Below, in pieces: positions 36,985 to 55,118 of a stretch of 55,118 nucleotides of DNA. How positions within the stretch are numbered: position 1 is the first letter of the stretch; each line of letters opens with the position of its first letter. The position numbers and the translations under genes are program-made. This stretch comes from Alphaproteobacteria bacterium (GTDB lineage: Bacteria; Pseudomonadota; Alphaproteobacteria; GCA-2731375). The notes beneath the pieces were generated by a model. It ran no database searches and was not told where the DNA came from. It saw only the letters and a program-made list of their open reading frames with translations. The stretch spans positions 1 through 55,118 of the forward strand of contig JAJFGG010000073.1 in NCBI GenBank assembly GCA_021776235.1. Reading direction: 5' to 3'.

Positions 36985-38007
36985 CGGGCGTTTGGCTTCC
37001 TTTGCCGGCGTTTCACGTAGTTGCGAGCTTCGCTGTCCAACCCGACTGCGAATGCTCGAAGTTAGGATAGTCTCATCAAACTGTCAGGCAGTAGCAACGA
37101 AATAGCAGGCTGTGCAGGATTGCCGATCCGGGCCCTCTTACAGGCTTTTGCCAAATTATTGATGTACTGATTTTTGGGTATGTCACGAGGCACGTTTTTG
37201 ACCGCCTGCATCGCCGCCGTCCTTGTAGGCAACGGCCTGGGTGGTTCTAAGACCCCTTGACGCACATGCGCATCAAACCATCCCTAGGTGTCCCTCCCCC
37301 CTACTCGTTTTGGGCCATTTTTGGCAGTCTTCCGGAAACCGGCTTTTTGGTTGATGCCGTCGTGGTTGCACGGCCCATTGGTATAAATGTCATTGCTTCA
37401 TTCCACACAAATCGAAGCTTTTGGTGGGGGGGATACTCACCCATTCGGCCAGATGGTTGAGCCCACCGTTTGCTCACCAACCAACGGTTAACTAGTCCCC
37501 AGCCGGAAATTTAGAGTTGGCTGCGCGTTGCGTCGCGCACCAATCGGGGTAGTGGAGGTCTCTTGGGGCGGTCGAATGCGGAGTTCCCAAGAAAGAATTT
37601 GGGAAGCTGGCGTCGGCCGGCAGAATTTGAACTTTTTCACGGGAGTAAACTGTCGGTTTACAGCCCAACTGGCGTGAGCGCCTCCTTTCATGCGGGTTCG
37701 AAAACTACGAACAAGCATTTGTGCATAGCCTCGTGCGGTAGGATCAAATGGATCTGACTGGGGACGTATTCGTATTCTATTTGGTTCCGCAATTTGTTGA
37801 TCGCGACGCAGCCTCGGTCTTGGCCGCGCCAAAAGCCGCGCACAAGTTAAGCCCCGCAAGTATCAGCGCTATTTCTACTATTACCAAAAGATGGCGGCCA
37901 CTATTACGCTCAGCCGGGAAACAGGCGGCGAGATGACACAATTCCTCGAAGCGTGTCATAATAAATTTTCGCGGAACTATCAGTGCGAGAAGGGTGGGAA
38001 TTGCGAC
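36985..38007. other. 1-kb non-coding gap before the helicase-nuclease gene
   Basis: No frame here has a recognisable protein. A 6-bp inverted repeat GTAAAC/GTTTAC at 37645-37661 and a mixed base composition are the only structures noted. It separates replication genes from cargo and should contain the promoter for the large helicase. Decayed genes or a small RNA cannot be excluded. Confidence 0.45.
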
Positions 38008-41000
38008 ATGTCATCGGACGAGGGAGCGGGAAACATCCTCTACGCGGGCAATGTGCAAACAGGCCTTGAGCGCTTACGCAAACGCCTTTTGGACTTAACG
38101 ACCCGCAACCGATTATTGGGGTTTCGCTTTCCGACGCGCGGCTCGTTACGCGTGGTCGATGAATTGCCGGACCAGTTGTATGAAACGCTAGTCGATGGCG
38201 CCAGTTTGACGATCATTCCCGTTCCGGAACCGCGAGCGGACGAATTGCGCCCCCTCAATGACGAGAGCACAGTCACGACAGAAGAGAAACCCACGGCACC
38301 GGAATGGGCTGCTCGTCTGGGATTTGCAACTTCCTTCGATCTGCCTGAAGCAACACCAGAGGAAGGTGAACTCGACCGGCACCAGGACAAGTATATCCAG
38401 ACCCTCCTGTATCCGGATCGCCTTGAAGCCGTGCTGCGGTCCATCCGCAGTGCCGCCCGCACGGCAATTGAAGAGTCCGGCACCAACATGTTGCACATTG
38501 CCTTCGGCTTCCTCGAATGGAAGGAGGCCGATGACGCGGCGACGCCACATTTCGCGCCTTTGTTGCTGTTGCCGGTCACTCTGGACCGTGGGCGGGTGGA
38601 TCGAACAACCGGCACTTATCGTTACCAGATCTCATATTCCGGCGAGGATGTCTTGACCAACCTCTCGCTGCGGGAAAAACTCGACCGTGATTTCGACTTG
38701 GCTTTGCCGGCGATTGAAGACGAAGACCGACCCGAAGCTTACTTCGACAAGGTGGCCACGCTGGCGGCCCACAAGCCAGGCTGGCGGGTCAGACGGCAAG
38801 TAGCCTTGTCCCTATTTCAGTACGGTAAGCTGCTGATGTACTTGGATCTGGACCCCGAACGCTGGCGTGACGGCGGCGGCCTGGAACGGCACGAAGCGGT
38901 TCGCAGATTTTTCGAAGGTGGCGAGGTTTCCGGTGACATGACGGCAACCGAATACGAAGTCGACCACAACCCACAATTGACTGCGCAGCTGCCCCTGATC
39001 GACAGCGCCGACAGTTCGCAGCTATCAGCCTTGATCGACGCCCTGGACGGCCGCCATCTGGTCATTGAGGGGCCACCCGGTACCGGCAAATCGCAAACCA
39101 TCACCAATCTAATTGCCGCCGCCCTGTACCAGGGCAAGACAGTGCTGTTCGTTTCGGAGAAGCTCGCGGCGCTCGAGGTTGTGCGCCGGCGCCTTGAGCA
39201 GGCCGGCCTGGGTGATTTCTGTTTGGAGCTGCATAGCCACAAGACGCAAAAACGGGCCCTTCTGAACGATCTGGAACGTCGACTTCGGAAAAAGGGCACC
39301 TATCGCGAGGCGACGAAGCTGCAACAGCGAATGCAGGCATTGCAGGAAACCAGGACACGCCTGAAGGCGCATGCGGTCAGAATGAGCCAACCACATGGTT
39401 CGTTGGGCGATACCGCCTGCGAAGTGCTGTGCAAGGCCACGCGCTATCGCTTGGAGATGGACGATAACGTCGCCATGCTGTCAGAGATCCATGTTGATGA
39501 TCCGGCGGCGATCGGCCCGGCCGAGTACAACCGCGCCCTGGAAGATTTACGCATCTACGCGGAGGCTCATGCCCGGCTGACCGCGGATTTCGGCGCAATT
39601 CTGGAGCATCCCTGGGCTGGTGTCGGCAACCGTGATCTGCAGGCCTTCGACAGCAGCCGAATGGCGGCATTGGGCACCGCATGGCGGGACAGGGCATTGG
39701 ACTTGGCTGAACAGCTGGATACCTTGCACCATAAGACCGGGCAGACGGGCGCCGCCACGATGACCGGGGTCCGTGCGTTGGCCGAAGCCGCCGATGCCAT
39801 TCCGGTTCCCGCCGACAACGCCCTGTTCGAAGTGCTGCCGCACGTCTCCGACCCGGAAGGGAACAAACATCTGTCGCGTTTCGGCGACCGACTGGCCGAA
39901 TACAGGGCGGGCTGCCAGGCCTTGGGTGAGATATTTGTCGGCGCGGACCCGGCGGACCGCGCGGCGCGGAATAACATCGAGACCTTAACAAATAAATTGA
40001 TCGGGACCGTAAGGCTTGAACCCACACTGACGAATTTGCGACCGGTCGCCGAAAGTCTGCGACACCTCGCAGCCAAAGTGAAAGAGATTTCGGACGAGGT
40101 GACGCAGATCCTGCCGACTTTTCAAGGCAGCGTTCGCTTTGACGGCGATGGCGTGGATGAATTGCTGAGAATATTGCGAATTTGCGGGGATGCGCCGATC
40201 ACGGCATTGGACCTGCGCGATCCACTGTTCGACGCTGTTGGCGTGGACCTTACGCTGGATATCATTACCACTGAAATGCAGGTTCTTGATGACGAGGAGG
40301 GGGCCCAGAGCCTGCTGTTCGACCTCGCCAGCCTGCCGCCAAGGCAAGACATCGCCAGGGCCAGCCACACCTTGGCCAAGGCTGGCGCCTTCCGTTGGCT
40401 CAACGGCGAGTGGCGGGCAGCCCGGCGGCTCTACCGTAACATTGCCAAAACACCAAAACTGCCCAAATCAGAACAGCCTGCCGGGCGGTTGGAAGATCTG
40501 CTTGCCTACCTCGACCGCTGCCGCGCTTTCGAGGCTGCACCGGAAGCAAAAAACGTTCTCGGGCACCATTTCTCCGGTCGCGGCACCGACCTGGCGGCGC
40601 TTCGCGCCATGCGGCAATGGTATCGCTGCGTGCGCGAAGAATTCGGTCAAGGTCTGGGCGCGCGGGTTGCCATCGGCGAGAGCCTGCTTTCAACGCCCAG
40701 CGCCATTCTGCAGACTCTGGCGCATGCCGCGTCTGGCGAGTTTGCGACGGGCCTTCAAGACATTGCCACGGATCTGCGGGCCTCCGCTGGATTACTTTTG
40801 GAACCGGTATCTGTCGGCACCATGGGTTCTGATCTTGCCACTGCTACAGACCGGGTCGAACAGCTTGCTGATGATTTGGAGAAAACGCTGCTGAAACTGA
40901 TCGAGGCCGGCGCCCGCGAAGACCGGTCCTTGAAGGCACTATTGTCGGGCGTGGTCCTGCTAGACCGCTGCAGTGACCTGCGGCGTGAGATAACGGATGA

Positions 41001-43536
41001 TGAGATCGCCCGGCAATTGCTGGGGCAGAACTTCCAGGCCGAACAGACCGATATCGAAGCGCTTTTGGCCACCCTGGCATTGGCTGCTGCGATTGAGGCG
41101 GCCGGCTTGCCGCCGTTATTGAGTCGCTGGCTGTTGTCGCAGGGCCAAAGGGAGGCTTTCGCAACACTGCGGCGGGACCTAGTAAACCTTGGCGAGTTCG
41201 CTGATATCTATGATCGAGATTTCGATGCCTTTCGCACAGAGGCCGAATTGGTCTGGGAATTGTGGTCTGCCGGCAACGCGGATGATTGTCCGCTAGGGGA
41301 AATTGCCGCGCGGTGCGACAGAGCCGTCAATGAGCCAAAGGCACTTAGCTCGTGGCTCGACTATTGGCGATCACGCCTGCGCCCCTCCTTCGGGCCATTG
41401 CGGGAATTGGTGGTGCTGGTCGAGCAGGGCCAGCTCCCGCGATCGTCGCTGCCAACGGCGCTGCATTACCTGGTTTACGACGCCATGGCCCGCGAATTGC
41501 TGCGCGGTGATGAGGCATTGCGGGATTTTAGCGGTTACGATCACGAGGTGCTACGGACACTCTTCGCCGAATTGGATGACGAGATCATCGAACTGCAGCA
41601 GCAACAGATCGCCCACACCATCGATCAGCGGTCCGTGCCAGGCGGCGTGGATCGAGGGACGGCGAAATCGCGCACCGATACCCGGCTGATCGAAGCCGAG
41701 ATTGGCAAGCGGCGGGCCCATATCCCCATTCGCCAGTTGGTTCTGCGCGCGGGCGGCGCTTTGCAGGCTCTCAAGCCATGTTTCATGATGGGGCCGCAAT
41801 CGGTGGCGCAATATCTTCAGCCCGGCGGCCTTTCGTTTGACATTGTGGTGATGGACGAGGCATCGCAATTGAAGCCCGAAGACGCAATCGGCACAATTGC
41901 GCGCGGCCGGCAACTGGTCGTCGTCGGCGACCCAAAGCAACTGCCGCCGACCAGCTTCTTCGATCGCATGTACGGCGATGACGAAGACGCAGAGGAGGCA
42001 ACCGGGGTTGAGGAATCCGAGAGTATTCTGGATGCCGCCATTCCCCTGTTCAAACCAGTGCGTCGCCTGCGCTGGCACTATCGATCCCGCCACGAAAGCC
42101 TGATCGCATTTTCCAACGAAAAATTCTACGACGGTGACTTAATTGTTCTGCCGTCTCCCCACGACGCCGGCGATCAATTTGGTGTTTCTTTCTTGCATGT
42201 ACCGGATGGGGTGTTCCGCAACCGCCGCAACACAAAGGAAGCCCAGCAGGTGGCCGCCGCGGCGATCGGCCACATGCGGCGACAGAGGAATGAATCCCTC
42301 GGCATCGTGGCGATGAATGCAACCCAGGCGGAATTGATCGAGATAGAGGTCGAGGCCTTGTTGAAAGACGACCCGCTGGCCCAGGCTTATATCGATATCC
42401 ATCGGAACCGGGCCGAACCGTTCTTTGTCAAGAATCTAGAGAATGCCCAGGGTGACGAACGTGACGTCATGATCATATCCTTCACCTATGGCCCGGCGGC
42501 GGTGGGAGAGCCGGTGCTGCAACGTTTCGGGCCGATCAACGGCGACGTTGGCTGGCGCCGCCTGAACGTTCTATTTACCCGCGCCAAGAAACGGGTAATG
42601 GCCATTTCCTCCATGACCACCGATGACATTCGAGTGGGGCCGGATTCACGGTTGGGCGTGCGCGCCCTGCGTGACTATCTGGCCTATGCCGATACCAGAA
42701 TTCTTGACCAGCCGCGTGAAACGGGCCGCCCGCCCGACAGTGATTTCGAGATCGCCGTCGCCCGGGCCTTGGAACAAGCGGGCTATGCCTGCACCGCGCA
42801 GGTTGGCGTGGCCGGCTTTTTCATCGATATCGCCGTCCGCCATCCGGACCGGGCCGGCGGCTATCTGCTGGGCGTGGAGTGCGATGGCGCCACCTATCAT
42901 TCGGCGAAGTCGGTGCGCGACAGGGATCGTCTGCGGCAGATGGTGTTGGAAGGGCTGGGTTGGCAGATCCATCGCATCTGGTCGACCGACTGGTTCAAGG
43001 ACCCGGACAGTGAAATTCGCCGCTTGACCGGGCGTATAGAAGTCTTGCGGGCGGCGCTTCACCCGACCCCGGAGGCACAGCCATCGATCGAACCACCGGT
43101 TGAAGCGACTCGCCCGGTGCCGGACCATGCGCCGGAGGAAATGAAGCCATCGGCGCCCAATATCCAGCCGCTGGCGGACGATCTGTTCGCGCTCGGTACG
43201 GCGACGGCCACCGAACCTTTCGATGCCACCGGATCGCCCGGGCAAGGCGGGGTGGGCGGCAACGATCTGCACAACGGCGCTTTGGGTCTGGCCGATGCCC
43301 GCGAACGCCTAATCGAACTGCGCGAGAACATCATAAAAATCGAGCGGCCCGGCGCTGATCCCGCCACGGGTTTGCTGCGCAAACGGATGCTGGACGCGTT
43401 ACTGCGCACGCTGCCCACCGATGGCGATGAATTCCGCCAAAAAATACCGTTCTCGCTGCGCCAGGGCACCGACGGCGGGCAATTGCAGGAATACGGCGAT
43501 AGAGTGTTCGAAATCCTGGCTGAGGCGCGGGCCTAG
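38008..43536 (+). CDS. DUF4011-type SF1 helicase with Vsr/DUF559-like nuclease domain
   Basis: 1842 aa. ATG at 38008 with GAGAAGGGTGGG upstream. The N-terminal DUF4011 signature is RLRKRLLDLTTRNRLLGFRF. An SF1 helicase follows, with Walker A GPPGTGKSQTITNL near 355, Walker B VVMDEASQLKPEDA near 1279, DPKQLPPTSFF, and NVLFTRAKKRVMAI; a long helical insert separates motifs I and II. Near residues 1576-1665 is a restriction-fold nuclease: FFIDIAVRHPDRAGG, LGVECDGATYHSAKSVRDRD, GWQIHRIWSTDW. The end (about 1760-1842) resembles DUF3320 (MLDALLRTLPTDGDEF, IPFSLRQGTDGG). Single-gene proteins of this build are known or suspected antiphage defence factors (Hhe-like). As island cargo, a defence role is likely. 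Convergent with the minus-strand cluster, 28 bases apart. Confidence 0.88.
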   Translation: MSSDEGAGNILYAGNVQTGLERLRKRLLDLTTRNRLLGFRFPTRGSLRVVDELPDQLYETLVDGASLTIIPVPEPRADELRPLNDESTVTTEEKPTAPEWAARLGFATSFDLPEATPEEGELDRHQDKYIQTLLYPDRLEAVLRSIRSAARTAIEESGTNMLHIAFGFLEWKEADDAATPHFAPLLLLPVTLDRGRVDRTTGTYRYQISYSGEDVLTNLSLREKLDRDFDLALPAIEDEDRPEAYFDKVATLAAHKPGWRVRRQVALSLFQYGKLLMYLDLDPERWRDGGGLERHEAVRRFFEGGEVSGDMTATEYEVDHNPQLTAQLPLIDSADSSQLSALIDALDGRHLVIEGPPGTGKSQTITNLIAAALYQGKTVLFVSEKLAALEVVRRRLEQAGLGDFCLELHSHKTQKRALLNDLERRLRKKGTYREATKLQQRMQALQETRTRLKAHAVRMSQPHGSLGDTACEVLCKATRYRLEMDDNVAMLSEIHVDDPAAIGPAEYNRALEDLRIYAEAHARLTADFGAILEHPWAGVGNRDLQAFDSSRMAALGTAWRDRALDLAEQLDTLHHKTGQTGAATMTGVRALAEAADAIPVPADNALFEVLPHVSDPEGNKHLSRFGDRLAEYRAGCQALGEIFVGADPADRAARNNIETLTNKLIGTVRLEPTLTNLRPVAESLRHLAAKVKEISDEVTQILPTFQGSVRFDGDGVDELLRILRICGDAPITALDLRDPLFDAVGVDLTLDIITTEMQVLDDEEGAQSLLFDLASLPPRQDIARASHTLAKAGAFRWLNGEWRAARRLYRNIAKTPKLPKSEQPAGRLEDLLAYLDRCRAFEAAPEAKNVLGHHFSGRGTDLAALRAMRQWYRCVREEFGQGLGARVAIGESLLSTPSAILQTLAHAASGEFATGLQDIATDLRASAGLLLEPVSVGTMGSDLATATDRVEQLADDLEKTLLKLIEAGAREDRSLKALLSGVVLLDRCSDLRREITDDEIARQLLGQNFQAEQTDIEALLATLALAAAIEAAGLPPLLSRWLLSQGQREAFATLRRDLVNLGEFADIYDRDFDAFRTEAELVWELWSAGNADDCPLGEIAARCDRAVNEPKALSSWLDYWRSRLRPSFGPLRELVVLVEQGQLPRSSLPTALHYLVYDAMARELLRGDEALRDFSGYDHEVLRTLFAELDDEIIELQQQQIAHTIDQRSVPGGVDRGTAKSRTDTRLIEAEIGKRRAHIPIRQLVLRAGGALQALKPCFMMGPQSVAQYLQPGGLSFDIVVMDEASQLKPEDAIGTIARGRQLVVVGDPKQLPPTSFFDRMYGDDEDAEEATGVEESESILDAAIPLFKPVRRLRWHYRSRHESLIAFSNEKFYDGDLIVLPSPHDAGDQFGVSFLHVPDGVFRNRRNTKEAQQVAAAAIGHMRRQRNESLGIVAMNATQAELIEIEVEALLKDDPLAQAYIDIHRNRAEPFFVKNLENAQGDERDVMIISFTYGPAAVGEPVLQRFGPINGDVGWRRLNVLFTRAKKRVMAISSMTTDDIRVGPDSRLGVRALRDYLAYADTRILDQPRETGRPPDSDFEIAVARALEQAGYACTAQVGVAGFFIDIAVRHPDRAGGYLLGVECDGATYHSAKSVRDRDRLRQMVLEGLGWQIHRIWSTDWFKDPDSEIRRLTGRIEVLRAALHPTPEAQPSIEPPVEATRPVPDHAPEEMKPSAPNIQPLADDLFALGTATATEPFDATGSPGQGGVGGNDLHNGALGLADARERLIELRENIIKIERPGADPATGLLRKRMLDALLRTLPTDGDEFRQKIPFSLRQGTDGGQLQEYGDRVFEILAEARA

Positions 43537-43564: not shown

Positions 43565-45277
43565 TCAGGGAAGGAAGGCAACAGGCACCCAGGCGTGGGG
43601 TGAGGACGGCAGGCGGCGATCGACATTATTGTCGCGGGCACGGCCTAAATCAAAGAACCAATGCCGCCGAATGACACTACCTGACCCATCACGTTTCCAA
43701 GAGAATTCATGGACACCATCTTGTTTGTTCCAATGAACTTCTGTTGGTATTCGTTCACTCAAAAGCCCATCCAGATACATCATCGATCGGCTTAGTGCAA
43801 AAATGGCGTCATCACGCTCCGGCCAGTCCTGCAGCATTTGGGCATTTCCGTCAATGTCCGCCAGGCTCAATTCCAGCACTGGATTTTGAGACCGATAGCC
43901 GCCCACCCGCTGCAAAAAATCGGCGATCGGCTCGTCGTTTCCCGGAAACTCGCCGGTTAACGCCTTGATTATCCCGGCGGCCGGACCCGCCAGTTCACTC
44001 AACGATGATTCAGGATTCAGTAATATATCCCAAAGATTTCTCGCGCCGGCATACAATTCAAACAGCTTCGTTTTCGGCAGCAACAACAGCATTTCACCAA
44101 CAGACCGACCGTTTCTATTTCTTGCGCAAAAATAGCCCACGCTGAGGCCGTTGGAAGTATTGTGCCTGGCCGGAAAGACGCCTTCGAAGCAATTGCGCCC
44201 GCGCCATGAGCCATTAATCTTGAGAATTGGAATTATGTCGCCCTTTGGGTGAGAAAGATCGGGAAACTCTGTAAATACCGGTTCGATCTGTCCTTGCCGC
44301 GAGTCATCATCGAGATAGCCTGAAAGGTCATCCTGGCTGGCGAACGCCATTATCGGCAGTACCGTACCGTTGTCATCGGGTCTCTTACTGAATACGCCAA
44401 ATCCCAGTCCCGTGTTCCATTCGGCCACGGCATTCCGCGCTGTCCATCCAAGCAGGCCAGACTTTGGAAAACGGGCGACCGCCAGATTGGAATATCCTAA
44501 AAGAACCGCATCCGAGGTTTGGGCGAACACAAATGAAGCTTGCGGGATCGAGGCTGACAACTGGCCAATCGGCGGTCCTTTGAGCGATGGCGACGGGTAC
44601 AGCGGCGCGCCGGATATCAGCGGCACAACGCGGCGCCACCGCCCGGCAGTGGGTGACGTCTCTGTGTTCGCGGTTTCCACCGACGCCGCATCCGAGTTAC
44701 CGGCCAATTCCTTGATTTTGGCGGTAGCGCGGGCCAGCCAAACAATGAAATATCCCTCGTATGCGCTGCCGCCGTTGCCGCGAACTGAAAAGCGCGCCGC
44801 CTGGATGCTTCGCCGCCCGCTTCCAAGGTTCGTCAGTAGGCGATGTGGTTCCGCCTGCAACCAGGCCGTCTTGGCCTCGCCCCCATTCGTCGGAAGCTTG
44901 ACCCTGACAAAACCCCCTTCGATCGCAGAAACAGCCAGCGAGGCGCCGAAGTCGTTCCCATCAAAATGACCTGCGGGGTGGGCAAGGGCGTCAGGTCTTG
45001 TTCTTGGCACCAGGGCCGTGTCCACCAAGAACGCAAAATAGTGATCCGGGTTCACTGTCTTTGGCGGCACGCCTTCCACCCAGTGGGGAGTGTCATCGCA
45101 AGCTGTCAAAAACAGCAATATCAGAAAAAAGAAGACGCCAGACAAGTCTATGGGACAAATTTTTACTGGGGCGTGGAGCAACACAAAACCGGCATCGGCG
45201 TGGCGGATCGACAAATTTCTGGCCTGCACCTTCAGCCGGACTGTCGTTTCGGTCGACAAAGCATATCCGCCAGCCAT
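43565..45277 (-). CDS. Predicted lipoprotein with SH3-like domain
   Basis: 570 aa as drawn. A lipobox LFLTAC with Cys60 follows a hydrophobic stretch from about residue 47, so the true start may lie closer (a TTG a few codons before the stretch), as a 40-residue leader would be unusual. Downstream an SH3-like unit reads PLYPSPSLKGPPIGQL to LLGWTARNAVAEWNTGLGF, the same pattern as in the next upstream gene's product (LIGWIPKDFTIDWNTREVF). Both proteins end alike: WVPVAFLP here, WFPIGLLP there. No enzymatic motif was found. It is the last gene of the minus-strand envelope cluster, 116 bases after its neighbour. Confidence 0.6.
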   Translation of the reverse strand: MAGGYALSTETTVRLKVQARNLSIRHADAGFVLLHAPVKICPIDLSGVFFFLILLFLTACDDTPHWVEGVPPKTVNPDHYFAFLVDTALVPRTRPDALAHPAGHFDGNDFGASLAVSAIEGGFVRVKLPTNGGEAKTAWLQAEPHRLLTNLGSGRRSIQAARFSVRGNGGSAYEGYFIVWLARATAKIKELAGNSDAASVETANTETSPTAGRWRRVVPLISGAPLYPSPSLKGPPIGQLSASIPQASFVFAQTSDAVLLGYSNLAVARFPKSGLLGWTARNAVAEWNTGLGFGVFSKRPDDNGTVLPIMAFASQDDLSGYLDDDSRQGQIEPVFTEFPDLSHPKGDIIPILKINGSWRGRNCFEGVFPARHNTSNGLSVGYFCARNRNGRSVGEMLLLLPKTKLFELYAGARNLWDILLNPESSLSELAGPAAGIIKALTGEFPGNDEPIADFLQRVGGYRSQNPVLELSLADIDGNAQMLQDWPERDDAIFALSRSMMYLDGLLSERIPTEVHWNKQDGVHEFSWKRDGSGSVIRRHWFFDLGRARDNNVDRRLPSSPHAWVPVAFLP

Positions 45278-45393
45278 GACACTGCAACATCCCTGGCAAT
45301 GCGCGAACGGATCAGCGTCTAAGCATTGTTAGCGTTCACGCTATTTTGATTGTACCAAACCACATAACAAATCTTAACCGTAACGATGAATGG

Positions 45394-47871
45394 TCAAGGC
45401 AATAGGCCGATTGGAAACCAAGCATGTACATTTCTTCCGCTTACTTTTACCTCAGCCGCTCCCTCGCCATCCATGTATATATTCTCTGGATCAGCCCGGC
45501 TCGCAAGGGACCGCTCATAGTAAAAAAAACGCTTCTCCGTTACGAAATTGCCTGACTTATCTGTTTGGTAAATCGGAATCCATTCCTGAATGTCATCGTC
45601 CCAGTTGCCCGATAGGACAATTTTTTCCGAAAAAAATGCATCTATTTTATGCCTTTTTTCACTGAGTTTTCTCGCTTCGCCCCGCAAATCTCCGTCATAT
45701 AGTGCAGCCGCCAACTCATTTACGCTGGTTTGCAGAAATCTCGATTGAAAACGAACGCCGGCACGCTTACTGATGAAATCGCTAATAAAGGCATCGCCGC
45801 GGGGATTGTCGTCGCCGGTTAAAATTTTCACCATTTGCACGATGGCATTTTCGACGTGGTCCTTGGACTGCATTTTCGATCCATACAGGACTAAATCCAG
45901 TAACTCGCTGACAGCTCGTAATATCAAATTGACTTGACGCTTGGTAACGAGCACACGTTGGTCCATTTGCACGATATTATTCCCGTCGCGTTCGGAAATG
46001 AAACCTTGCCTAACCACCTGCCGGATGTTTTGGGCCTGATAACGCGCGGCGACTTCCTCCCGAAACTGGACACTACCTCCATAACCCGGTATACCACACT
46101 TATTCTGTTTCCAACGGTCCGGGTCGCCGCGCAGACATACAAGATTGTTGTGAATGCCGGTGGCAATCTTGACTACTTTTTCCAATCCTTCGAGATAATC
46201 CCTTTCATTGTCAACGTCGGCTTTAACAAACGACTGGGTCACCGAACCTTCACCCTGGATTTTAACTATCTGGTCAGAAAATCGTCGCCGGATCTCCTGC
46301 TCCCTATCGCTGCCTCCCCGATGAACCTGCAATGCATGCAGGAAGATATTATTTTTCCGGTACAGGGCTCGAATTTCCCCGGCGTCAAGGTAATTGGCTG
46401 CATTTACGTAGGCGCGGTGAAAGGCAGGATCAAGGTCATTCGATGTATGATTTCCGTGATCGCCGATGAGGAATACATGATTATGATTGGAATCACTCCA
46501 CGGTAACTTTCTGGCAACCTGGTCTAAACCAAAAAACAATGCCTCGGGTATGGTATGTAGCCCCCTTTGATCTCCGCTTGCGCTTTTGGCGTCAATTCTA
46601 TTTATCGCGGAAATTATACTGTTCCCATTTCTGGTGAAACCCTGTTCTATCCAAAAAGGCCCACTTGCTTTGTCGGGCCAGTCACGATAGATCGCCACGG
46701 CGACCTGCAAATTGAAGGCTTTAAGCCTGCGTTCAAAAAAATTCGTAAGCGCGGCCTTGAGGTGAGGCAATAAATCCTGCATTCCCTGAGTCGCATCAAT
46801 CAATAGCGCGATTCGCAATTGCTTGCGGCTAACCTGGTCATTCACGAGATTGAGGTTAGCATTCAATTCGCCAATATAGGCCACTTCGTATATCGGGTTG
46901 TCACCTCCTTCGACACGGTCGAGTACGGGAAAAAAGTTCAAATTGTACGCCAGCGGCTCGGCCGTTTTTGATTCCCAACCGGCAATGTCTTCGGCCGCGT
47001 TAATCGATTGCCCGTTGAGATATTTTAGAACAAGGTCCTCAGTATTCAGGACCTTGCCCAAGCCGGCCTTGTCGGTTCGTTCCTCGAAACTGTTTTTATC
47101 AAAACGAAATACCTCCCGCGTGTTCCAATCGATGGTGAAATCTTTCGGGATCCAGCCAATCAATGCACGGCGTGCATTACCCAGGTTCAATACTGGGTGC
47201 GCACCAACCAGAACAGCGTCTTCCCGCTCCGCATAAAGATACTGCAGCTCAAAATGGCCAACTCTCGTGATGCGGTGATCTTCCGCAAGATCGGGCGAGG
47301 AATAAACATTGACCCATAGGTTTTCATGATGCTTCCCACTAACTGAATCCGGTGTTAATTTCACGACAATTTTACGGTCGATCGAAGTTGTTTTCCGGAC
47401 ATCATCAACATCGTCAATAAATTCAACCTGCCGGCATATAATGCCTTTGGTATCCGTGCCTTCATTGGTTAAAAATGTATCGAAACTTCGCGTCTCCCGT
47501 TGCCTGCTTGTGGGCGCCCGTACCCAGCCGGTGATTTCACCACCGCCGTACTTTCCCTCTACTTCCCAAAATCTACTTTGTTTGTTTCCTGTCAGAAAAA
47601 GAACCCCGCCAAAATCGCCGGTCCCACCAGTAACCGGTGTGCCGGACTCCGGCGCGGATAGCCAAATTTCCATATTGGTGTCGGTGACAACAATGAAATC
47701 CTTGGCCCTGAGCAGTCTTGAATTGGACCGGGCGGACTCTTGAGCCGTTGACCTTGGGATTTGGCTTTGGGCCAGCGTGGCGCCCTCCGCCAAGACGTAC
47801 ATACCCATGACGAAAATCATAAGTATCCCCAGCCCATGGACGCCGCGCTGTTCACGTATAGATTGCATCAT
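45394..47871 (-). CDS. Exported VWA-domain protein with SH3-like N-terminal region
   Basis: 825 aa. The ATG at 47871 has AGGAG 7 bases before it, better than a TTG 18 bases upstream that would overlap the previous gene. Export segment: GLGILMIFVMGMYVLAEGAT. SH3-like region to about residue 240 (LIGWIPKDFTIDWNTREVF). The von Willebrand A domain starts near 350 (RIALLIDATQGMQDLLPHLK); the metal site reads DATQG in place of the standard DxSxS, so metal binding may be altered. The helix and strand pattern continues (VAVAIYRDW, HNHVFLIGDHGNH). A long helical C-terminal part follows. SH3-then-VWA order recalls the C-terminal part of PpkA kinases and TssR of type VI secretion, but no secretion-system gene is present. 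Confidence 0.7.
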   Translation of the reverse strand: MMQSIREQRGVHGLGILMIFVMGMYVLAEGATLAQSQIPRSTAQESARSNSRLLRAKDFIVVTDTNMEIWLSAPESGTPVTGGTGDFGGVLFLTGNKQSRFWEVEGKYGGGEITGWVRAPTSRQRETRSFDTFLTNEGTDTKGIICRQVEFIDDVDDVRKTTSIDRKIVVKLTPDSVSGKHHENLWVNVYSSPDLAEDHRITRVGHFELQYLYAEREDAVLVGAHPVLNLGNARRALIGWIPKDFTIDWNTREVFRFDKNSFEERTDKAGLGKVLNTEDLVLKYLNGQSINAAEDIAGWESKTAEPLAYNLNFFPVLDRVEGGDNPIYEVAYIGELNANLNLVNDQVSRKQLRIALLIDATQGMQDLLPHLKAALTNFFERRLKAFNLQVAVAIYRDWPDKASGPFWIEQGFTRNGNSIISAINRIDAKSASGDQRGLHTIPEALFFGLDQVARKLPWSDSNHNHVFLIGDHGNHTSNDLDPAFHRAYVNAANYLDAGEIRALYRKNNIFLHALQVHRGGSDREQEIRRRFSDQIVKIQGEGSVTQSFVKADVDNERDYLEGLEKVVKIATGIHNNLVCLRGDPDRWKQNKCGIPGYGGSVQFREEVAARYQAQNIRQVVRQGFISERDGNNIVQMDQRVLVTKRQVNLILRAVSELLDLVLYGSKMQSKDHVENAIVQMVKILTGDDNPRGDAFISDFISKRAGVRFQSRFLQTSVNELAAALYDGDLRGEARKLSEKRHKIDAFFSEKIVLSGNWDDDIQEWIPIYQTDKSGNFVTEKRFFYYERSLASRADPENIYMDGEGAAEVKVSGRNVHAWFPIGLLP

Positions 47872-47885
47872 CGCATCTCCTAAGG

Positions 47886-50800
47886 TCAATTACCCGGGAC
47901 CTCGCCTAACCCTAGCTTTTCCTTGACCAAGGGCCAACTGAATATGTGCTCAATGTGGTGAACATTTCTGTCATCGGGGTTCGCTTCCCTCAATAATGAT
48001 TTGCTCAGGACATAGCTAATCGTGGCATTCGCGCCGCTGTTGTTATTCTTGGCGTCACAAACTTGAGCGTTCTTGAAAACATCTTCGCCCCGCACTGCGT
48101 TTAGTTCCCTTCGCGGAATAATAGAGATAACGTGAAGATTGTGAAACCGGAGTTCCTTCTGCATGAGTTTACACCAAATTCCACGGGTCCGAGGCCTCAG
48201 CCTGTCGGTTAGAAACAATATGTCGAAAGTATCACTGGTAAAATTTAGAGCATCCGCATCGCGGGACAACATATCATCTGGCCAAATGCTGTCGCGCGCC
48301 AATAATTCCATGTCGGCCAACAGCCGATACGGTTTTTTGAAATTCAGAAGGAAATCAGCCTCGGAACCGATCCGTATATATACATCATGATAATAGTTTA
48401 TATCCCCGTTTGTTTCCCTTTTCGCCGCCGCCGCCAAATTCACTAACAGTTGATCAAGTTTGGGCATGGCTCGTTGATAATCGCTTAGCGTTTGGCCCCT
48501 TCCGGGCCTGTCGCTGAACTGACGGCGATAAGAATCCCTTTTGCCAACAGGATAATAAATGAGCAGCTTTCGTTCCGTCGGCGTCCTCAGCACGTATTTG
48601 ATTTCCCGCGACTTTTCATCCACGACATGATTTAGCAGCAACCGTTCCGACGGTTTTTTGCGCTCCTTTTCCGAAAAGACTTCACCGACATCAAATTGCG
48701 CAGCTTTCAGACTTTTAACATTCCAAGGCAGCCAACCTGGCACGAATATATCCAATTTGTATCGGTTTGACTTTTCGACCGGCCAATCGATGCCACCAAT
48801 TCTGATATACGTCCCAGTCTTCCCTATACGCTTGGGCAACAAGGGGCAACCGTTAGCGCCACAGCCGCCAAAAACACTTGTATGGAAGGTTAAAGTTGCC
48901 TTCTCAAGCGGATAATTTGGCCGGATCAGGAATTCCACATTTGTTGAGGCAGGCGTGTCCCTGGCGCTGTCCCAATAGCGAGGTGCCGACTTTTCGTACC
49001 GGTCACCAGATACTGAACTAATTGACAGCACACCGCAATCACTTGCAATGAACGATTGGTTGCTCGTCTTCGCACCACGATCAGGACTGGGCTGATCATT
49101 CAGTTGCAGCATAAACCCATCTTTACCAAAGTGCCTCTTATATACATTCAATTTCTCGCCGGCTCGAGGCCCCTTGGGTTTGTATGCAGGGTCAAAGCTA
49201 TATTTTACATGGCGCTCCATGGTCCCAAGGATGGTCTTTACATGGTGCGTTTCAATGTCATAGCCATGCCCAACGACTTTTAAACCATACTCACGAATTC
49301 CTTCAATTCGAAAATTCAACTTACCAGATTTTATATTTTTTGGAAGTTCGGGATATTTTGATTTATAGGCAAGAAATGCCCACTTGGGCATATCGATTCC
49401 TTGATTCTTCCCCTGGCCTGCAGGAAGTCTCTTCGTATTCCTATCATTATTGGCATCAATAATCACCGGGCTCAGTCTATCGAAAGGTTTTTCTTGACAT
49501 CGGGTCACATCATTTCGCTGCAATTGAAATCCTACTGACGCCGTGACCGCCCGCAACCTAACATCCTCCTCCATTTTATCCAGCCGTAGTCTGACATATT
49601 CAGTCACTCCCTTAATATGCTTCTTAGTATAGTATTTTTGGATCTTGGTCTCTGCTTCTGAATATGACGTTACGTCAATAATAAAACATTGCCGTTTTGA
49701 CGCATTAGGAAACTCATCCTGGCATTCTAACCAATTTGGGGTTTCAGGCTCTGAATCGTGCTTAGATTTTAGGTAGGTCAGCAAAAGTCCTCTTTTTACA
49801 AAGTTGTATTTTAGGGTCGTAGCGGTTTTAATTATTCCGTCCTTCTTTTCATTCAAATTTCGTGCGGTGTATCCGAATGGCACATTGATCTCGACCTTAG
49901 CGTCAGCGCATTTGGCAGGTACCGTGCCATAATAAGTGAAGTTATTCGGGAATTGCTGGTTAGGATCTCTATCCGTCTGAATCCGAATATTGCCTTGGCC
50001 AGAGGTTGATTGATAAATTGCTATAATTTCGAGATCATCCAGGTTTTTCGGACGTAGCCCACTGACCGTTATAGTGCATTCGTGGACCTGCGTAGGCTTC
50101 CTAGCTTCTTCTCTCCTAGCCTCTTCTTTCCTAGCCTCTTCTTTCCTAGCTTCTTCTCTCCTAGCTTCTTCTCTCCTAGCCTCTTCTCTCCTAGCTTCCT
50201 CTATCTCTGATTTTTCATTTTGTTGTTCTTCTCCGCTCAGCGAAACTGGTAGTTTTGGATTTATAGTCTCTTTTTCAGCCAGTTTTGCCCGCGCAGGATC
50301 CATTTCTAGATCCTTACCAGTAAAAGTGAGAATTGACCTGATTTCTGTTTCTTTTGACGTGACGACGTATTTTACTTTTAATCCAGACTCTTTCTCGTAG
50401 GCCGTCAGTTGGTCTTGTTGGTTTTCGTATTCGTCGGGGGCCGATTTCCATAGCATCATTCTACGTAGTCTTGGGTTCTCGGCCCAAAATTCGATGGCAC
50501 GGTGTCGACCTTCCTTAATCGTACCTTTTCTATGAGGCGACAACTCTGCGTCAATAGCAAACCCGTTACAACTAGCACAGTTTTCTATCTTGACCAATAT
50601 AGTTGCACTTCTTCCGTATAGATATAATTGATCATTTTGCCAAATCAAAGGCTCAGACTCGGAGTCGGGGATCCAATTGATAGATTCTAAATGTTCCTTG
50701 ACAAAAAGTCCGGATCCAAAATATATCTCATGCTCTTTGACATAGTCGACGTTTCCGTAACATACGATTTTCAAACTATCAGGGGTACAGACGCTTTGCA

Positions 50801-51797
50801 TCACGGAATCAAACGCAATCAATCCCTTAGCTCTATACTCCCTATTTATTTCAGTATCGAGAATTTTTAAGCTTATTATCGGATCAACCATGTCGCGAAA
50901 TACGACTGTATCAAATGGATCACTTTGATCCAATGGATTGACATCGTTTATTTTTAAAACAAAACGCAGTAGATAATAGGTTTGATCGGTTGTTGCGCTC
51001 GCTATGAAATTTCCTTTGCGATTTTTTCTTACGCGCGGGTTTCTCATGTACGCATAGGAACCTTTGAAGTTACTATCATCCCAGAGTTTCATGACAAATC
51101 GCCATATATCGCGCGACGTGACGTCCTTCCATTGAAACACATCTTTAGCGACAATAAATGGCACCCGCATTAAGAATGAATTGGATTTATTATCTTTATA
51201 TAATCTCCGATACAAAATATTAGGATTATTTGGGACAGACCGCGCGTCATCATTGCCCTGACTTAAGCCTCTGACAAATTCAACACCTGGATCTGCAAAC
51301 AATTTCATCCATTTTGGCAATGCGCGGAGCCGTCCCGGATCGACGCGATAGATGCGTTTTTTATGTTTTCCGAATTTCCCAGACTGCCATTGTCTCTTGA
51401 ACAGTGACTCGTAAGTCTCATCGCCATGAGCGTCCTCACCTGAAACAATTGAACATTGATTGTTATTACCAAAAAATTTAAAATCTAGCTTTGCCCTATT
51501 TCCGCTGTCAGATTTGACAGGTGTGCGCAGCCCACAATATACATAGCGTCCAGGGATGGGATCCGCGGTAGCGTCGACGCTGGCGAAATTCATCAATGGT
51601 GCCAAACAGAAGGCGACAAGGCATGCGAAGCTAAGCTGCCGGCGTCTGGGTCCCCGAAAAGGACCGATGTTTTGCTGGGTCTCAGGGATCACAGGGCGCA
51701 CGTGCCGTGCCGCTTCCTGTTCTTGGGCGCCCGTTTCGTGCTGGTCGCTGCCTGTGCGCCCCGTTGTTATCATTGTCCGTCCATCATCTTTGTTCAC
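47886..51797 (-). CDS. Large exported protein with charged helical repeat, envelope cluster
   Basis: 1303 aa, GTG start. An unusually long leader (MNKDDGRTMITTGRTG) precedes the export segment at 55-72 (LSFACLVAFCLAPLMNFA). Residues 1 to about 500 are paralogous to the product at 51918-53900, with many blocks shared (YRVDPGRLRALPKW, FDSVMQSVC, CASCNGFAIDAELSP). Near 530-566 seven EARRE/EARKE units form a charged single helix. The C-terminal part has strands like a degenerate VWA fold (RKLLIYYPVGKRDSYRRQF, FDILFLTDRLRPRTRGIW) without a full metal site. No family is recognised. Base composition is clearly more AT-rich than in the rest of the window, suggesting acquired DNA. Confidence 0.65.
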   Translation of the reverse strand: MNKDDGRTMITTGRTGSDQHETGAQEQEAARHVRPVIPETQQNIGPFRGPRRRQLSFACLVAFCLAPLMNFASVDATADPIPGRYVYCGLRTPVKSDSGNRAKLDFKFFGNNNQCSIVSGEDAHGDETYESLFKRQWQSGKFGKHKKRIYRVDPGRLRALPKWMKLFADPGVEFVRGLSQGNDDARSVPNNPNILYRRLYKDNKSNSFLMRVPFIVAKDVFQWKDVTSRDIWRFVMKLWDDSNFKGSYAYMRNPRVRKNRKGNFIASATTDQTYYLLRFVLKINDVNPLDQSDPFDTVVFRDMVDPIISLKILDTEINREYRAKGLIAFDSVMQSVCTPDSLKIVCYGNVDYVKEHEIYFGSGLFVKEHLESINWIPDSESEPLIWQNDQLYLYGRSATILVKIENCASCNGFAIDAELSPHRKGTIKEGRHRAIEFWAENPRLRRMMLWKSAPDEYENQQDQLTAYEKESGLKVKYVVTSKETEIRSILTFTGKDLEMDPARAKLAEKETINPKLPVSLSGEEQQNEKSEIEEARREEARREEARREEARKEEARKEEARREEARKPTQVHECTITVSGLRPKNLDDLEIIAIYQSTSGQGNIRIQTDRDPNQQFPNNFTYYGTVPAKCADAKVEINVPFGYTARNLNEKKDGIIKTATTLKYNFVKRGLLLTYLKSKHDSEPETPNWLECQDEFPNASKRQCFIIDVTSYSEAETKIQKYYTKKHIKGVTEYVRLRLDKMEEDVRLRAVTASVGFQLQRNDVTRCQEKPFDRLSPVIIDANNDRNTKRLPAGQGKNQGIDMPKWAFLAYKSKYPELPKNIKSGKLNFRIEGIREYGLKVVGHGYDIETHHVKTILGTMERHVKYSFDPAYKPKGPRAGEKLNVYKRHFGKDGFMLQLNDQPSPDRGAKTSNQSFIASDCGVLSISSVSGDRYEKSAPRYWDSARDTPASTNVEFLIRPNYPLEKATLTFHTSVFGGCGANGCPLLPKRIGKTGTYIRIGGIDWPVEKSNRYKLDIFVPGWLPWNVKSLKAAQFDVGEVFSEKERKKPSERLLLNHVVDEKSREIKYVLRTPTERKLLIYYPVGKRDSYRRQFSDRPGRGQTLSDYQRAMPKLDQLLVNLAAAAKRETNGDINYYHDVYIRIGSEADFLLNFKKPYRLLADMELLARDSIWPDDMLSRDADALNFTSDTFDILFLTDRLRPRTRGIWCKLMQKELRFHNLHVISIIPRRELNAVRGEDVFKNAQVCDAKNNNSGANATISYVLSKSLLREANPDDRNVHHIEHIFSWPLVKEKLGLGEVPGN
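50101..50205. repeat. 15-bp tandem repeat, seven units, in coding sequence
   Basis: Seven consecutive 15-bp units of type CTAGCTTCTTCTCTC with a few C/T changes, the last one more diverged. On the coding (minus) strand each unit gives five residues (EARRE or EARKE). Length changes keep the reading frame, so the helix can vary in length. Confidence 0.9.
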
Positions 51798-51917
51798 TCA
51801 AATTGAGGCCATGGTAGAATAATTCATAGTGGGTGACCATCCGGTTCCGGGTCGGTTTTTGTCGGGCGCATGGATCGATACAGAGCTTCCCATATACTGC
51901 GTTGCCAGGCCGAATGC

Positions 51918-53900
51918 CTAGCGCACAAGGATAATTGAGGTTCGGTGCGACGCCGCCGCGTTGCAATATTTGAATTTTTGCTTTTCCGCATACCATTCCA
52001 CACAGGGGAAGGTGTCCAATGTCTGCCGCTGGGCATCGATGAAAATGCGGTCGTTTTTGATGCGTTTCAAAATTTGGCTCCATTCCGGTGACGGTTTTCC
52101 GCTTAATTGAGCCATTTGTCCCCTGGTGGGCAATCTCCAACCAGAGTCCTTGATCCCTTTCAAAATGCCCATCGGACCCGCATGGGCCACAAGCAGCCTG
52201 CGCATTGCTTCCCTTGCACCATCGTTCCGCGGCACCAGGCTGAAAGACCAGGACAATTCCCCTGTGCGGTAACTAACAGACACCCGCGGCAGCTCAGCCG
52301 CCATCACGAGATCTTGAGGAGGCCCGGCGACGATCTGTTCACTAAGGTTTTCGCCGAATTCCCTGTTAGATGATCTTGAAATTCCGATATCGCCTGTACT
52401 GTTGGTACTGGATCCGGCGAGAGGGCCGCTGTCTCGACCGGTAAAGACGAGCATTGACCTGTTGTTTGTTTTTTCCGATGTGAGCCGGTATTTCACTGTT
52501 AACCCAGACAGTTTCTCGTATGCTGCTAATTGGTCCTCCTGGCTTTCGTATTTGTCGGGTGCCAGTCTCCATAACATCATCCTGTGCAGTCTTGGATGCG
52601 CGGCCCAAAAATCCATGGCACGGTGTTCACCAGCTTTGATTGTATTTTTTTCTTTAGGCGACATTTCGGCGTTGACAACAATGCCATTACAACTGGCGCA
52701 ATCTTCAATTCTAACCGATATTTTTGCACTTTTTCCGTACAGATACAATTTGTCGCCCTGCCAAACCAAAGGCTCAAGGTCCGGGATCCAATTGATAAAT
52801 TCAAGATGCTCTCTAACGAATTTTTCTGATCCTACATAAATACCAAATTCTCGAGTATAGTTAGAACTTCCGTAACAAGATAATTCAAACTCTTTAGGAT
52901 GACAGACACTTTGCATCACAGAATCAAACGCAATCAAACCCTCACTCCGATATTCCCTATTTGACTCAGTATCGAGGACTCTTAAACTAAATACCGGATC
53001 ATAGAGTTCGCGAAATACAGCGGTATCGAATCGATCACCGGGATCCAGTGAATTGATATCGTTTCGTTTTAAGACGAAGCGCAGCAAGTAATATGTTTGA
53101 TCGGTTGTTGCTTTCGCTCTAAATTTGTTGCCCTTCTTTTGCACGAGCGGGTTCCTCATATAGGCATAGGCGCCACGGAATTTCGGATCATCCCAGAGCT
53201 TCATAACAGTCTGCCATACCTGACGCCGCGTGACGTTCTTCCATTGAAACACATCTCGGGCGACATAAAATGGCACCCGCATCAAAAACGAATCCCCTTC
53301 TGGATACAATTGCCTGTAAAAAATCCTTGGATTGGTCGGGACGGGCACTGCATCCAAATTGCCTTGATCTAGACCAAACAGAAATTCGACATCCCTGTGC
53401 GTAAATAAATCGAACCATTTAGGAAATGAGCGGAGTCGTCCCGGATCAATGCGATATATGCGGGTACTTCCTTTATTTCCCTTGCCATCCTGCCATTGAT
53501 TTTTGAAAAATGCTGCGTAAGTGCTGCCGTCGAGAACCCCTTCACCTGTAACAAACGAGCATCTTGTTTTACCAAGCAGGATATTATCCGAATAAATCTT
53601 ATGTTTATTCTCCGATTTATCAGGGGCGCGTTCCCCACAGTACAAATAATGTCCAGGGATGGGATCCGCGGCGGCGTCAACGCTTGCGAAGTTCAACAAC
53701 GGTGCCAAACAGTAGGCCGCGAAGCATGTCAGACCAAGCCGCCGGCGCCTGTTTCCGCGTAAAGGATCGGGACTTCGCCGCGTCACACGGGTCACCGGGC
53801 GCATGCGCCAGGCCGCTTCCATTTGGTGCGCCCCTGATTCGCTCTGGCCGCGGCCTGTGCGCCCCGTTGTTATCATTCTCCACCCATCTTCATTGTCCAT
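51918..53900 (-). CDS. Exported paralog with C-terminal DUF1566-like module
   Basis: 660 aa. The ATG at 53900 gives a leader (MDNEDGWRMITTGRTG) that aligns position by position with that of the downstream paralog, supporting both starts; a GTG four codons upstream is less likely. Export segment at 55-72. Residues to about 500 are the shared paralogous module (YRIDPGRLRSFPKW, FDSVMQSVC, CASCNGIVVNAEMSP). The last 130 or so residues form a different module (ELSWSFSLVPRNDGAREAMR, SGWRLPTRGQMAQLSG, TFPCVEWYAEKQKFKYCNAA, TSIILVR), which looks like a short DUF1566/C-type-lectin-like domain and recurs at the end of the next upstream protein. Role unknown; probably periplasmic or surface-exposed. Confidence 0.65.
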   Translation of the reverse strand: MDNEDGWRMITTGRTGRGQSESGAHQMEAAWRMRPVTRVTRRSPDPLRGNRRRRLGLTCFAAYCLAPLLNFASVDAAADPIPGHYLYCGERAPDKSENKHKIYSDNILLGKTRCSFVTGEGVLDGSTYAAFFKNQWQDGKGNKGSTRIYRIDPGRLRSFPKWFDLFTHRDVEFLFGLDQGNLDAVPVPTNPRIFYRQLYPEGDSFLMRVPFYVARDVFQWKNVTRRQVWQTVMKLWDDPKFRGAYAYMRNPLVQKKGNKFRAKATTDQTYYLLRFVLKRNDINSLDPGDRFDTAVFRELYDPVFSLRVLDTESNREYRSEGLIAFDSVMQSVCHPKEFELSCYGSSNYTREFGIYVGSEKFVREHLEFINWIPDLEPLVWQGDKLYLYGKSAKISVRIEDCASCNGIVVNAEMSPKEKNTIKAGEHRAMDFWAAHPRLHRMMLWRLAPDKYESQEDQLAAYEKLSGLTVKYRLTSEKTNNRSMLVFTGRDSGPLAGSSTNSTGDIGISRSSNREFGENLSEQIVAGPPQDLVMAAELPRVSVSYRTGELSWSFSLVPRNDGAREAMRRLLVAHAGPMGILKGIKDSGWRLPTRGQMAQLSGKPSPEWSQILKRIKNDRIFIDAQRQTLDTFPCVEWYAEKQKFKYCNAAASHRTSIILVR

Positions 53901-53921
53901 GAAAATCGCCACTGTGATAGA

Positions 53922-55118
53922 CTATTTCATGGACCGCACCAGAACGAGCGCCGTTCGCTGTGTCAGCCGGGCATCGCAGTTTTTGAATTTCTTTTGGCGA
54001 ACATGCCATTCCGCACACGGGAAGGTGTTATATGATTGGGTCCGGCCGCTGGTAAATACTCGATCGCCCTGAATGCGACGTAAAATTTCAATCAAGTCAA
54101 GCGGCGCGTTTTTGCGCAACCGGTCCAATTGCCGCCGCGTAGGAAGACGCCAATCGCCGGCAATTTGTTTTAACAGCCCTTTCGGTCCCTTGTGGGCCTC
54201 AAGCAATCGACGCACGTTTTCTCTGGAGACGTCATTGTTCGGCACTAAACTGAAAGACCAGGCCAACTCTTCCGTCAGGTGGCTCTGTTCAACTTGTGGC
54301 ATGGAAGGCGGTAGAACAGATGCAACGCGACCAGGGTCGAGGCGTCGCTTCGGGCTTTTTTCCATAGGCGGGGGCAGTTCCAGAAGCGAATTGCATCCCG
54401 GCGTCAATCTCGAGAAGGCATCTTTTCCTTGGCTGCCGGCCTCGGATCCGGCAGCTGCTTCCAGTTCGATTGGAAAAATTGCCGCAAGAGTCGTTTGCAA
54501 AAGATCCGCATAACTCTTGCCGCGTCCATCCTCTGACCCAACGGCAATGCCGGCTTTCAGGTCGGCCTCCTTTTGTGCCAGTCTTCGTACTTGGTCTTGC
54601 CAGCCAACATATTCATTGGAACCATTCGGTCGGCCGCCGTTAACGCCGTTTAACGCTGAAACCTGTCGCCTGATATAGCCCAACCCGTCCGTAACATCGC
54701 GATCAAGGCTCTCGCACTTTTTTCGGGTTATATTATGTGCTTCACGGCTGATTCCAAAGCCATGCACTGTATAATTAACTTCCACAAATCCGAATACCGC
54801 CGGTTGACCAAAGGCAATCCGCTGGCGGTCAACATAGAATCGCGCTTCGGAAAATCTGGTTGTGAGTTGTGAACCGCCGGTCTTGTCCGGCCGGCTGGTA
54901 CCCTGGGTAACAGGCGATGACAATGCTTTTCTAACGAATGCCGTTCGCAGTTTAATCGGTTTCAACAGACTGGCCGCCAAGCCCTCGAATTTAATGGCAT
55001 CGTTATTTGGGTTGCCGTACGACCCATAACTGGAGAATTCAAGAATTCTGCCACTATGGCTTTTGTCAACAGCATCGACAAAATTTCTAACACCTTCCCG
55101 CAACGTCATTGCCGTTCG
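53922..55118 (-). CDS. Partial exported(?) protein with VWA-like and DUF1566-like parts
   Basis: The frame is open to the window edge, so at least 398 codons are visible and the true start is probably outside; an ATG at 55109 is just a codon in the frame. The first visible residues (EGVRNFVDAVDKSHSGRILE, FSSYG) resemble the first helix and second strand of a VWA domain. A helical middle (VRRLAQKEADLKAGIAVG) and a proline-rich linker follow. The C-terminus carries the same module as the downstream paralog: LAWSFSLVPNNDVSRENVRR, DWRLPTRRQLDRLRKN, TFPCAEWHVRQKKFKNCDA, TALVLVRS. It ends 21 bases before the next gene, so it leads the cluster as seen here. Confidence 0.6.
   Translation of the reverse strand, partial: RTAMTLREGVRNFVDAVDKSHSGRILEFSSYGSYGNPNNDAIKFEGLAASLLKPIKLRTAFVRKALSSPVTQGTSRPDKTGGSQLTTRFSEARFYVDRQRIAFGQPAVFGFVEVNYTVHGFGISREAHNITRKKCESLDRDVTDGLGYIRRQVSALNGVNGGRPNGSNEYVGWQDQVRRLAQKEADLKAGIAVGSEDGRGKSYADLLQTTLAAIFPIELEAAAGSEAGSQGKDAFSRLTPGCNSLLELPPPMEKSPKRRLDPGRVASVLPPSMPQVEQSHLTEELAWSFSLVPNNDVSRENVRRLLEAHKGPKGLLKQIAGDWRLPTRRQLDRLRKNAPLDLIEILRRIQGDRVFTSGRTQSYNTFPCAEWHVRQKKFKNCDARLTQRTALVLVRSMK

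Follow-up and report, generated by a model that had tools for sequence, protein, structure and literature searches.

Introduction

In Pseudomonas, the TagQRST/PpkA pathway of the H1 type VI secretion system (T6SS) senses outer-membrane damage (PMC11881912), and TagR promotes PpkA activation by acting on the PpkA C-terminal domain (PMC3224232). Tag and PpkA genes also exist beside srfBC in genomes that lack T6SS genes (PMC3608642). FtsX-type ATP-binding cassette (ABC) proteins of the FtsEX and MacB types are described, in two sources, as passing force across the inner membrane (PMC7668044, PMC5985334). PpkA, TssR and the Srf-associated proteins with a von Willebrand factor type A (VWA) domain are usually treated, if studied, as separate systems. 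Here we analyze a gene cluster at the end of contig JAJFGG010000073.1, from a 6.36-Mb alphaproteobacterial draft genome (174 contigs, 98.4% complete), that links the VWA part to an ABC-FtsX protein and to a lipoprotein with the fold of formylglycine-generating enzyme (FGE). The stretch analyzed, called the window, is this entire contig (G000:C145) of 55,118 bases, and the cluster is therefore cut at position 55118. With a probability of roughly one half, we read the cluster as a rare variant of the TagQRST/PpkA type of envelope module that has no kinase and is independent of the T6SS; in it, ATP would drive a movement of FtsX that is coupled to a periplasmic VWA/FGE complex.

Results

An earlier note, made from the sequence of the window alone, described five consecutive minus-strand genes for exported proteins, and the open reading frames are where it placed them. 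Within the window they are transcribed in the order P5 (cut), P4, P3, P2, P1.

43565-45277, minus strand: P1, 570 amino acids (aa), lipoprotein with an SH3-like unit; its C-terminal domain and the one in P2 are paralogous (open reading frame; BLASTP to P2)
45394-47889, minus strand: P2, 831 aa, exported protein with SH3/TssR_M, VWA and C-terminal domains (TssR_M, alignments of relatives, hhalign)
45397-46113, minus strand: C-terminal domain of P2, common to P1, ending FPIGLLP (BLASTP, alignments)
46780-46797, minus strand: DATQGM of P2, resembling a metal-ion-dependent adhesion site, with the canonical DxSxS altered (last Ser to Gly; compared with relatives)
47137-47337, minus strand: TssR_M match in P2, about residues 185-251 (Pfam)
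47886-51797, minus strand: P3, 1303 aa, exported protein with an N-terminal 496 residues paralogous to P4, an EARRE repeat and a C-terminal region of ~720 residues
50099-50202, minus strand: 15-nt tandem repeat coding for the EARRE spacer of P3 (TRF, 6.9 copies, 92% match)
51918-53912, minus strand: P4, 664 aa, exported protein with the N-terminal module of P3 and a C-terminal 129 residues as in P5
53922-55118, minus strand: P5, 398 aa, 5' end open

Sequence comparison places P2 in one superfamily with the periplasmic part of PpkA, TssR and the Srf-associated VWA protein, because hhalign aligns P2 to the Srf/PpkA proteins and because they end alike. P2 alone, set against a profile of ten Srf/PpkA VWA proteins, gives a probability of 97.5% (E 7e-12, 99.5 bits) over residues 212-670, and 20 shuffles reach at most 27.8 bits; the homology runs from SH3 through VWA into the C-terminal domain, part of which it covers. 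The PpkA, Srf-VWA, G028 and Sagittula relatives that were read in frame (the last two are introduced below) close, like P1, with xP...LP. The sole Pfam family for P2 is TssR_M, which reaches 25.6 bits in the protein scan (E=1e-5) against a cut-off of 25.7. In the scan of whole genomes it scores 29.5 bits, and no other match across 388 genomes of the phylum exceeds the curated cut-off. The earlier note had been reminded of PpkA and TssR by the VWA protein, and the TssR_M match, the profile search and hhalign, the profile-profile comparison it had proposed, all agree with it. The SH3-like unit that it saw in P2 is present and shared with P1, and Pfam names the P2 unit TssR_M. Its altered metal motif is also borne out: P2 has DATQGM, and its relatives have DGTKSM, DGTRSM (the nearest analogues) or DASSSM.

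When the proteins of 385 genomes of the class were searched with P2, two relatives emerged, both in the same kind of cluster; the one cluster scanned encodes SrfB, SrfC, a Sel1 protein, a VWA protein, an ABC ATPase and FtsX/FGE-sulfatase. A profile of P2 and these two relatives matches 13 further genomes at E <1e-120 and others weakly, a strength carried by the two relatives and not by P2. The matches fall in SrfABC-type clusters and in loci whose gene order is of the PpkA type (proteins of about 1000 aa). In gene order and sequence one of these loci, L039, resembles a PpkA locus of a T6SS, and by eye its neighbors look like TssK, TssL and TssM. In P2's own genome, a profile of the SrfBC-linked VWA proteins finds P2 alone.

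The other half of the cluster lies on contig C83 of the same genome (locus L056, 19170 bases), which was found through a weak match (E 0.09) to a permease profile built from the G028 and Sagittula permeases. Another match to that profile, on contig C172 (E 0.2), lies among genes arranged as for an ordinary MacB-type exporter. The reverse complement of the window begins with the 11 bases that end C83, the frames agree (...GEGRTA / RTAMTL...), and an open reading frame open at its 3' end on C83 meets one open at its 5' end in the window. Among 7021 contig-end pairs, chance overlaps drop about four-fold per added base, and at least 11 bases are expected about 0.002 times; this pair was chosen beforehand on grounds other than the overlap. 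Judged from these contig ends, C83 continues the cluster of the window.

55108-55118, minus strand: join to C83 (C83 19160-19170), CGAACGGCAAT on both contig ends, an 11-nt exact overlap
L056:16871-19168 and window 53922-55118 (minus strand): composite P5, 1161 aa, with its first 766 codons on C83 and its last 398 in the window
L056:14101-16854, same direction as P5: fused ABC ATPase-FtsX permease, 917 aa (ABC_tran 8e-18, FtsX 8e-7)
L056:10851-13973, plus strand: PEGA/FGE-fold lipoprotein, 1040 aa (FGE-sulfatase E 2e-35, with PEGA)

Further upstream on C83, in the same direction, are genes for a 299-aa exported protein and a 445-aa lipoprotein. The result is a cluster of nine co-directional genes that spans about 21 kb and two contigs, with its downstream half in the window: 445-aa lipoprotein, 299-aa exported protein, 1040-aa PEGA/FGE lipoprotein, 917-aa ABC-FtsX protein, composite P5, P4, P3, P2 and P1. 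The ABC-FtsX protein matches the ABC and FtsX proteins of related loci, and the FGE region of the 1040-aa lipoprotein matches the TagR-like FGE protein of the SrfABC-type cluster L037 (E 2e-12). Active formylglycine-generating enzymes have a pair of cysteines at the place corresponding to RGGHYGSTSKDTTTFWR in this lipoprotein. Because that stretch has no cysteines, the fold is probably not catalytic here.

P5, called partial by the earlier note, is so solely through the contig end at 55118; the composite protein has a signal-peptide-like start on C83 and a weakly Lcl_C-like C-terminus. The label "DUF1566-like" survives in part, in that a WRLPTR motif is present and the Lcl_C match in P5 is below threshold (E=0.23). 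A VWA domain at the start of the window's part of P5 would have its metal motif before RTAMTLREG, and the C83 sequence upstream, GDHSKGGEG, has no DxSxS. The shared modules seen in the earlier note are evident in BLASTP, which aligns residues 1-496 of P3 and P4 at 60% identity (E=0), the C-terminal 129 residues of P4 and P5 at 48% (E=1e-36), and the C-terminal 245 residues of P1 and P2 at 23% (E=1e-9), with a further 32% over 66 residues in the SH3-like unit of the last pair (E=7e-4). Third codon positions are the most divergent in all three paralogous pairs, and this concentration of differences argues for constrained coding sequences. P1 has a lipobox (FLTAC, Cys60, then Asp-Asp), ends WVPVAFLP and matches no family in Pfam, NCBIfam or PADLOC; it reads as a lipoprotein with a C-terminal domain of the P2 type but without a VWA domain.

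The VWA, ABC ATPase and FtsX permease genes are kept together in genome G028 (L040), on a Sagittula plasmid (L053), in SrfABC-type clusters and, judged by gene order and sequence, in L039; the first two are the closest to the present cluster. In G028, the gene of an 840-aa double-SH3-VWA protein, whose IGDHG loop is the same as that of P2, has the gene for a 672-aa exported protein on one side and those for an ABC ATPase and an FtsX permease on the other. A plasmid search with this protein led to plasmid NZ_CP155730.1 of Sagittula stellata E-37, where the order is FGE, a 1068-aa protein, an 873-aa VWA protein, ABC ATPase, permease, small exported proteins and MotA/TolQ/ExbB; IGDxG is common to P2 and both VWA proteins. 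The Sagittula cluster (L053 10303-25945) is largely uncharacterized and lies between conjugation genes and a transposase of this conjugative plasmid. The large protein encoded ahead of VWA in G028 and its Sagittula counterpart are related (E 3e-5), and P3 may be regarded as their analogue in position only.

Searches for relatives covered genome, plasmid and viral collections, sampled or scanned by pattern and without metagenomes, and "no relatives" means none in these searches. P4 had no match in 14 genomes of the family (here equal to the order) and no relatives among the genome contigs, viral contigs or plasmids. Nor were relatives found of P2 among the viral contigs, of P2 or the P3/P4 module in two scans of the genome contigs (one each), or of any of P1-P5 among the plasmids. 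The recurrence that the earlier note asked about holds for the VWA/ABC/FtsX set, in Sagittula and G028, and not for P3-P5.

The genes around the cluster are as follows.

31113-31192, minus strand: tRNA-like sequence beside the integrase, called tRNA-SeC by ARAGORN and not by Rfam
31307-32647, plus strand: tyrosine integrase, ahead of the cluster
37891-43536, plus strand: Hhe-like protein (Hhe is an anti-phage protein), 1881 aa, with DUF4011, helicase and MTES_1575 nuclease, convergent with P1
L056 3531-5570 and 5610-7388, minus strand: three genes (482, 190 and 592 aa) beside and divergent from the cluster, with no family match

A Toprim primase and a D5-type helicase are also encoded ahead of the cluster, with the integrase and the Hhe-like gene, whose product scores 1910 bits in NCBIfam (cut-off 2000) and 1339 bits for PADLOC Hhe. 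G+C content is 45-52% in the five-gene cluster versus 58-60% across most of the window. Low G+C, the integrase and the neighboring defense gene bear out the description of the cluster as island cargo. The tRNA-like sequence has a good, intact-looking 3' half that ends in CCA and a poor 5' half; it is a likely candidate for the attachment site of the island, whose other end would lie past the contig. A search for RNA families in the window found none.

Beyond the ABC-FtsX gene to the right of 55118, which the earlier note had asked about, C83 encodes, divergently, a lytic transglycosylase (SLT, 9e-16), a MotA/TolQ-like protein that matches the Sagittula MotA/TolQ protein (4e-4), a 304-aa exported protein and two single-pass membrane proteins, the last of which (L056:3-614) is cut at the left end of C83. 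A single transmembrane segment is predicted midway along the 482-aa protein. Among about 155 other contig ends, none was found to continue past the left end of C83.

Elsewhere in the window, a 1965-aa protein (10026-15923, minus strand) has a weak multicopper-oxidase match as its sole match, and the adjoining product of 7764-9767 matches cytochrome D1 and beta-propeller models. A 500-aa protein (18980-20482, minus strand) matches type I dehydroquinase in one part and shikimate dehydrogenase in another, and its gene is flanked by luciferase-like monooxygenase and TauD-type genes.

Discussion

From the architecture of the cluster, which the comparisons above support, we infer a function. The ABC-FtsX protein would move no substrate and would couple ATP hydrolysis to motion of its own periplasmic part, in the manner of FtsEX, LolCDE and MacB. 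Between the two membranes, P2, P1 and the FGE-fold lipoprotein would form a periplasmic complex that could receive this motion or impart it. P2 would take the place of the periplasmic VWA region of PpkA in the damage-sensing pathway, and the complex might sense, repair or relieve a disturbance of the envelope. Because no T6SS sheath gene is found and no kinase is recognized, we propose that the output is local, perhaps through the neighboring lytic transglycosylase. P3, P4 and composite P5 could be periplasmic or surface partners. The residue at position +2 sorts lipoproteins in E. coli, a rule that may not be this organism's; Asp at +2 of P1 suggests retention in the inner membrane, and Gln or Thr at +2 in two C83 lipoproteins suggests the outer membrane.

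Several observations weigh against a TagQRST/PpkA-type module. P3, P4 and P5, which make up over half of the window's cluster, have no relatives in any collection searched. P2 shares only 20-24% identity with any relative, and its branch in the VWA family tree is very long, with its placement unsettled (the row ppka_L022 of that tree is mis-framed and is disregarded), and with its altered metal motif the ligand function of the VWA domain may be lost. No Ser/Thr kinase family was recognized in P1-P5 or in the ten C83 proteins scanned, and no TagQ homologue was identified, lipoboxes being present in P1 and in the 445-aa and 1040-aa proteins of C83. The C-terminal region of P3 resembles, in its place and in the look of its motifs, the large protein that precedes VWA in G028 and Sagittula, but neither BLASTP nor hhalign gave any homology between them, and hhalign gave no support for an FGE fold at the C-terminus of P4 and P5. 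Structure prediction, another check that the earlier note had proposed, was run on P4 and on the 398-aa window part of P5 and was uninformative, with pLDDT (predicted local distance difference test) values of 31 and 35, both below 36.

The neighborhood and the MotA/TolQ-like protein make a role in defense a serious rival, if an unlikely one. An envelope-spanning motor complex of the ABC-FtsX and MotA/TolQ-like proteins, as in Zorya, would detect phage adsorption or envelope injury, act locally and travel beside Hhe. The cluster adjoins the Hhe-like gene in an integrase-bearing, low-G+C island, its distribution is patchy (none in the 14 family relatives), and the Sagittula relative is on a conjugative plasmid; neighborhood by itself, however, is no proof of defense. 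ZorA2 models match the MotA-like protein of C83 (2.8e-5) and ZorA models that of Sagittula (4e-6), but no ZorB, ZorC, ZorD, ZorE or effector was recognized and no PADLOC model matches P1-P5. We regard as improbable a broader proposal, in which the MotA/TolQ-type protein, ABC-FtsX, the VWA/FGE complex and the large orphans would together form a new mobile envelope machine that senses attack by phage or contact and is autonomous, with neither T6SS nor kinase.

It is doubtful that the cluster is instead a machine for export or surface assembly, in which ABC-FtsX would export or position P3, P4 and P5 and the FGE lipoprotein would be structural, like PorK/GldK in the type IX secretion system. The lipoprotein does match the GldK/PorK model (4.6e-20) and solved PorK chains, but PvdO and FGE match the FGE fold equally well or better, so the GldK match is not specific. 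The ABC ATPase models matched include LolD and MacB, and P3, P4 and P5 are large exported proteins that lack relatives; yet each of the three has its own signal peptide, and no outer-membrane channel was recognized. An accessory module of a T6SS, with a TssR- or PpkA-like membrane or regulatory part, would account for the TssR_M match and for the homology to PpkA and TssR in a similar domain order. This reading is very improbable, and for this genome largely refuted: no TssC sheath gene is found in the 98.4% complete genome (few control genomes carry TssC, and this negative rests on the family model), P2 has neither a kinase domain nor a lipobox, and no other T6SS gene was recognized among the window and C83 proteins scanned, in line with the earlier note, which saw no core genes. 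If the TagQRST/PpkA-type reading is true, the sensor would be a general envelope module that was recruited by the T6SS, and the kinase-less form would allow its mechanical and sensory core to be examined apart from weapon firing.

Among described systems, Zorya shares with the locus a MotA/ExbB/TolQ-type protein (ZorA), matched weakly on C83 and in Sagittula; the cluster differs in that the weak ZorA match stands alone, and ZorB plus C/D or E was not found. TssR of the Bacteroidota T6SSiii resembles P2 in its TssR_M match, central VWA domain, C-terminal domain and size (about 790 versus 831 aa), whereas P2 has a plain signal-type N-terminus with no lipobox and its genome has no sheath gene; TssN, TssO, TssP and TssQ were not reported in P1-P5 or the ten C83 proteins, and no separate search for them was made. 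The double SH3-VWA proteins of the G028 and Sagittula clusters (840-873 aa) have a large exported protein upstream and an ABC ATPase with an FtsX permease on the other side, and Sagittula also has FGE and MotA/TolQ genes, but in both clusters the ATPase and permease are separate genes and there is no P1, P4 or P5. In the SrfABC-associated clusters (L014, L034, L035, L037, L038, L042), a VWA protein of the superfamily is encoded beside ABC ATPase, FtsX and FGE with no need of a T6SS, although P2 is distant from that protein in sequence (about 20-24% identity) and neither SrfB (PF07520) nor SrfC (PF10139) was reported in P1-P5 or the ten C83 proteins scanned.

The system on which our preferred reading is modeled is TagQRST/PpkA. 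The present cluster differs from it in having no kinase domain and no T6SS, in its fused ATPase and permease, in carrying the FGE domain in a 1040-aa PEGA lipoprotein, and in its orphans P3-P5 and MotA/TolQ-like neighbor. The earlier statement that the genes fit no named system stands for P3, P4 and composite P5; for the core it gives way once C83 is added, since the core matches TagR, TagS, TagT and the VWA part of PpkA. As in the Pseudomonas system, an SH3-VWA periplasmic family, a TagR-type FGE fold, TagT/TagS-type ABC and FtsX parts and lipoproteins are encoded together.

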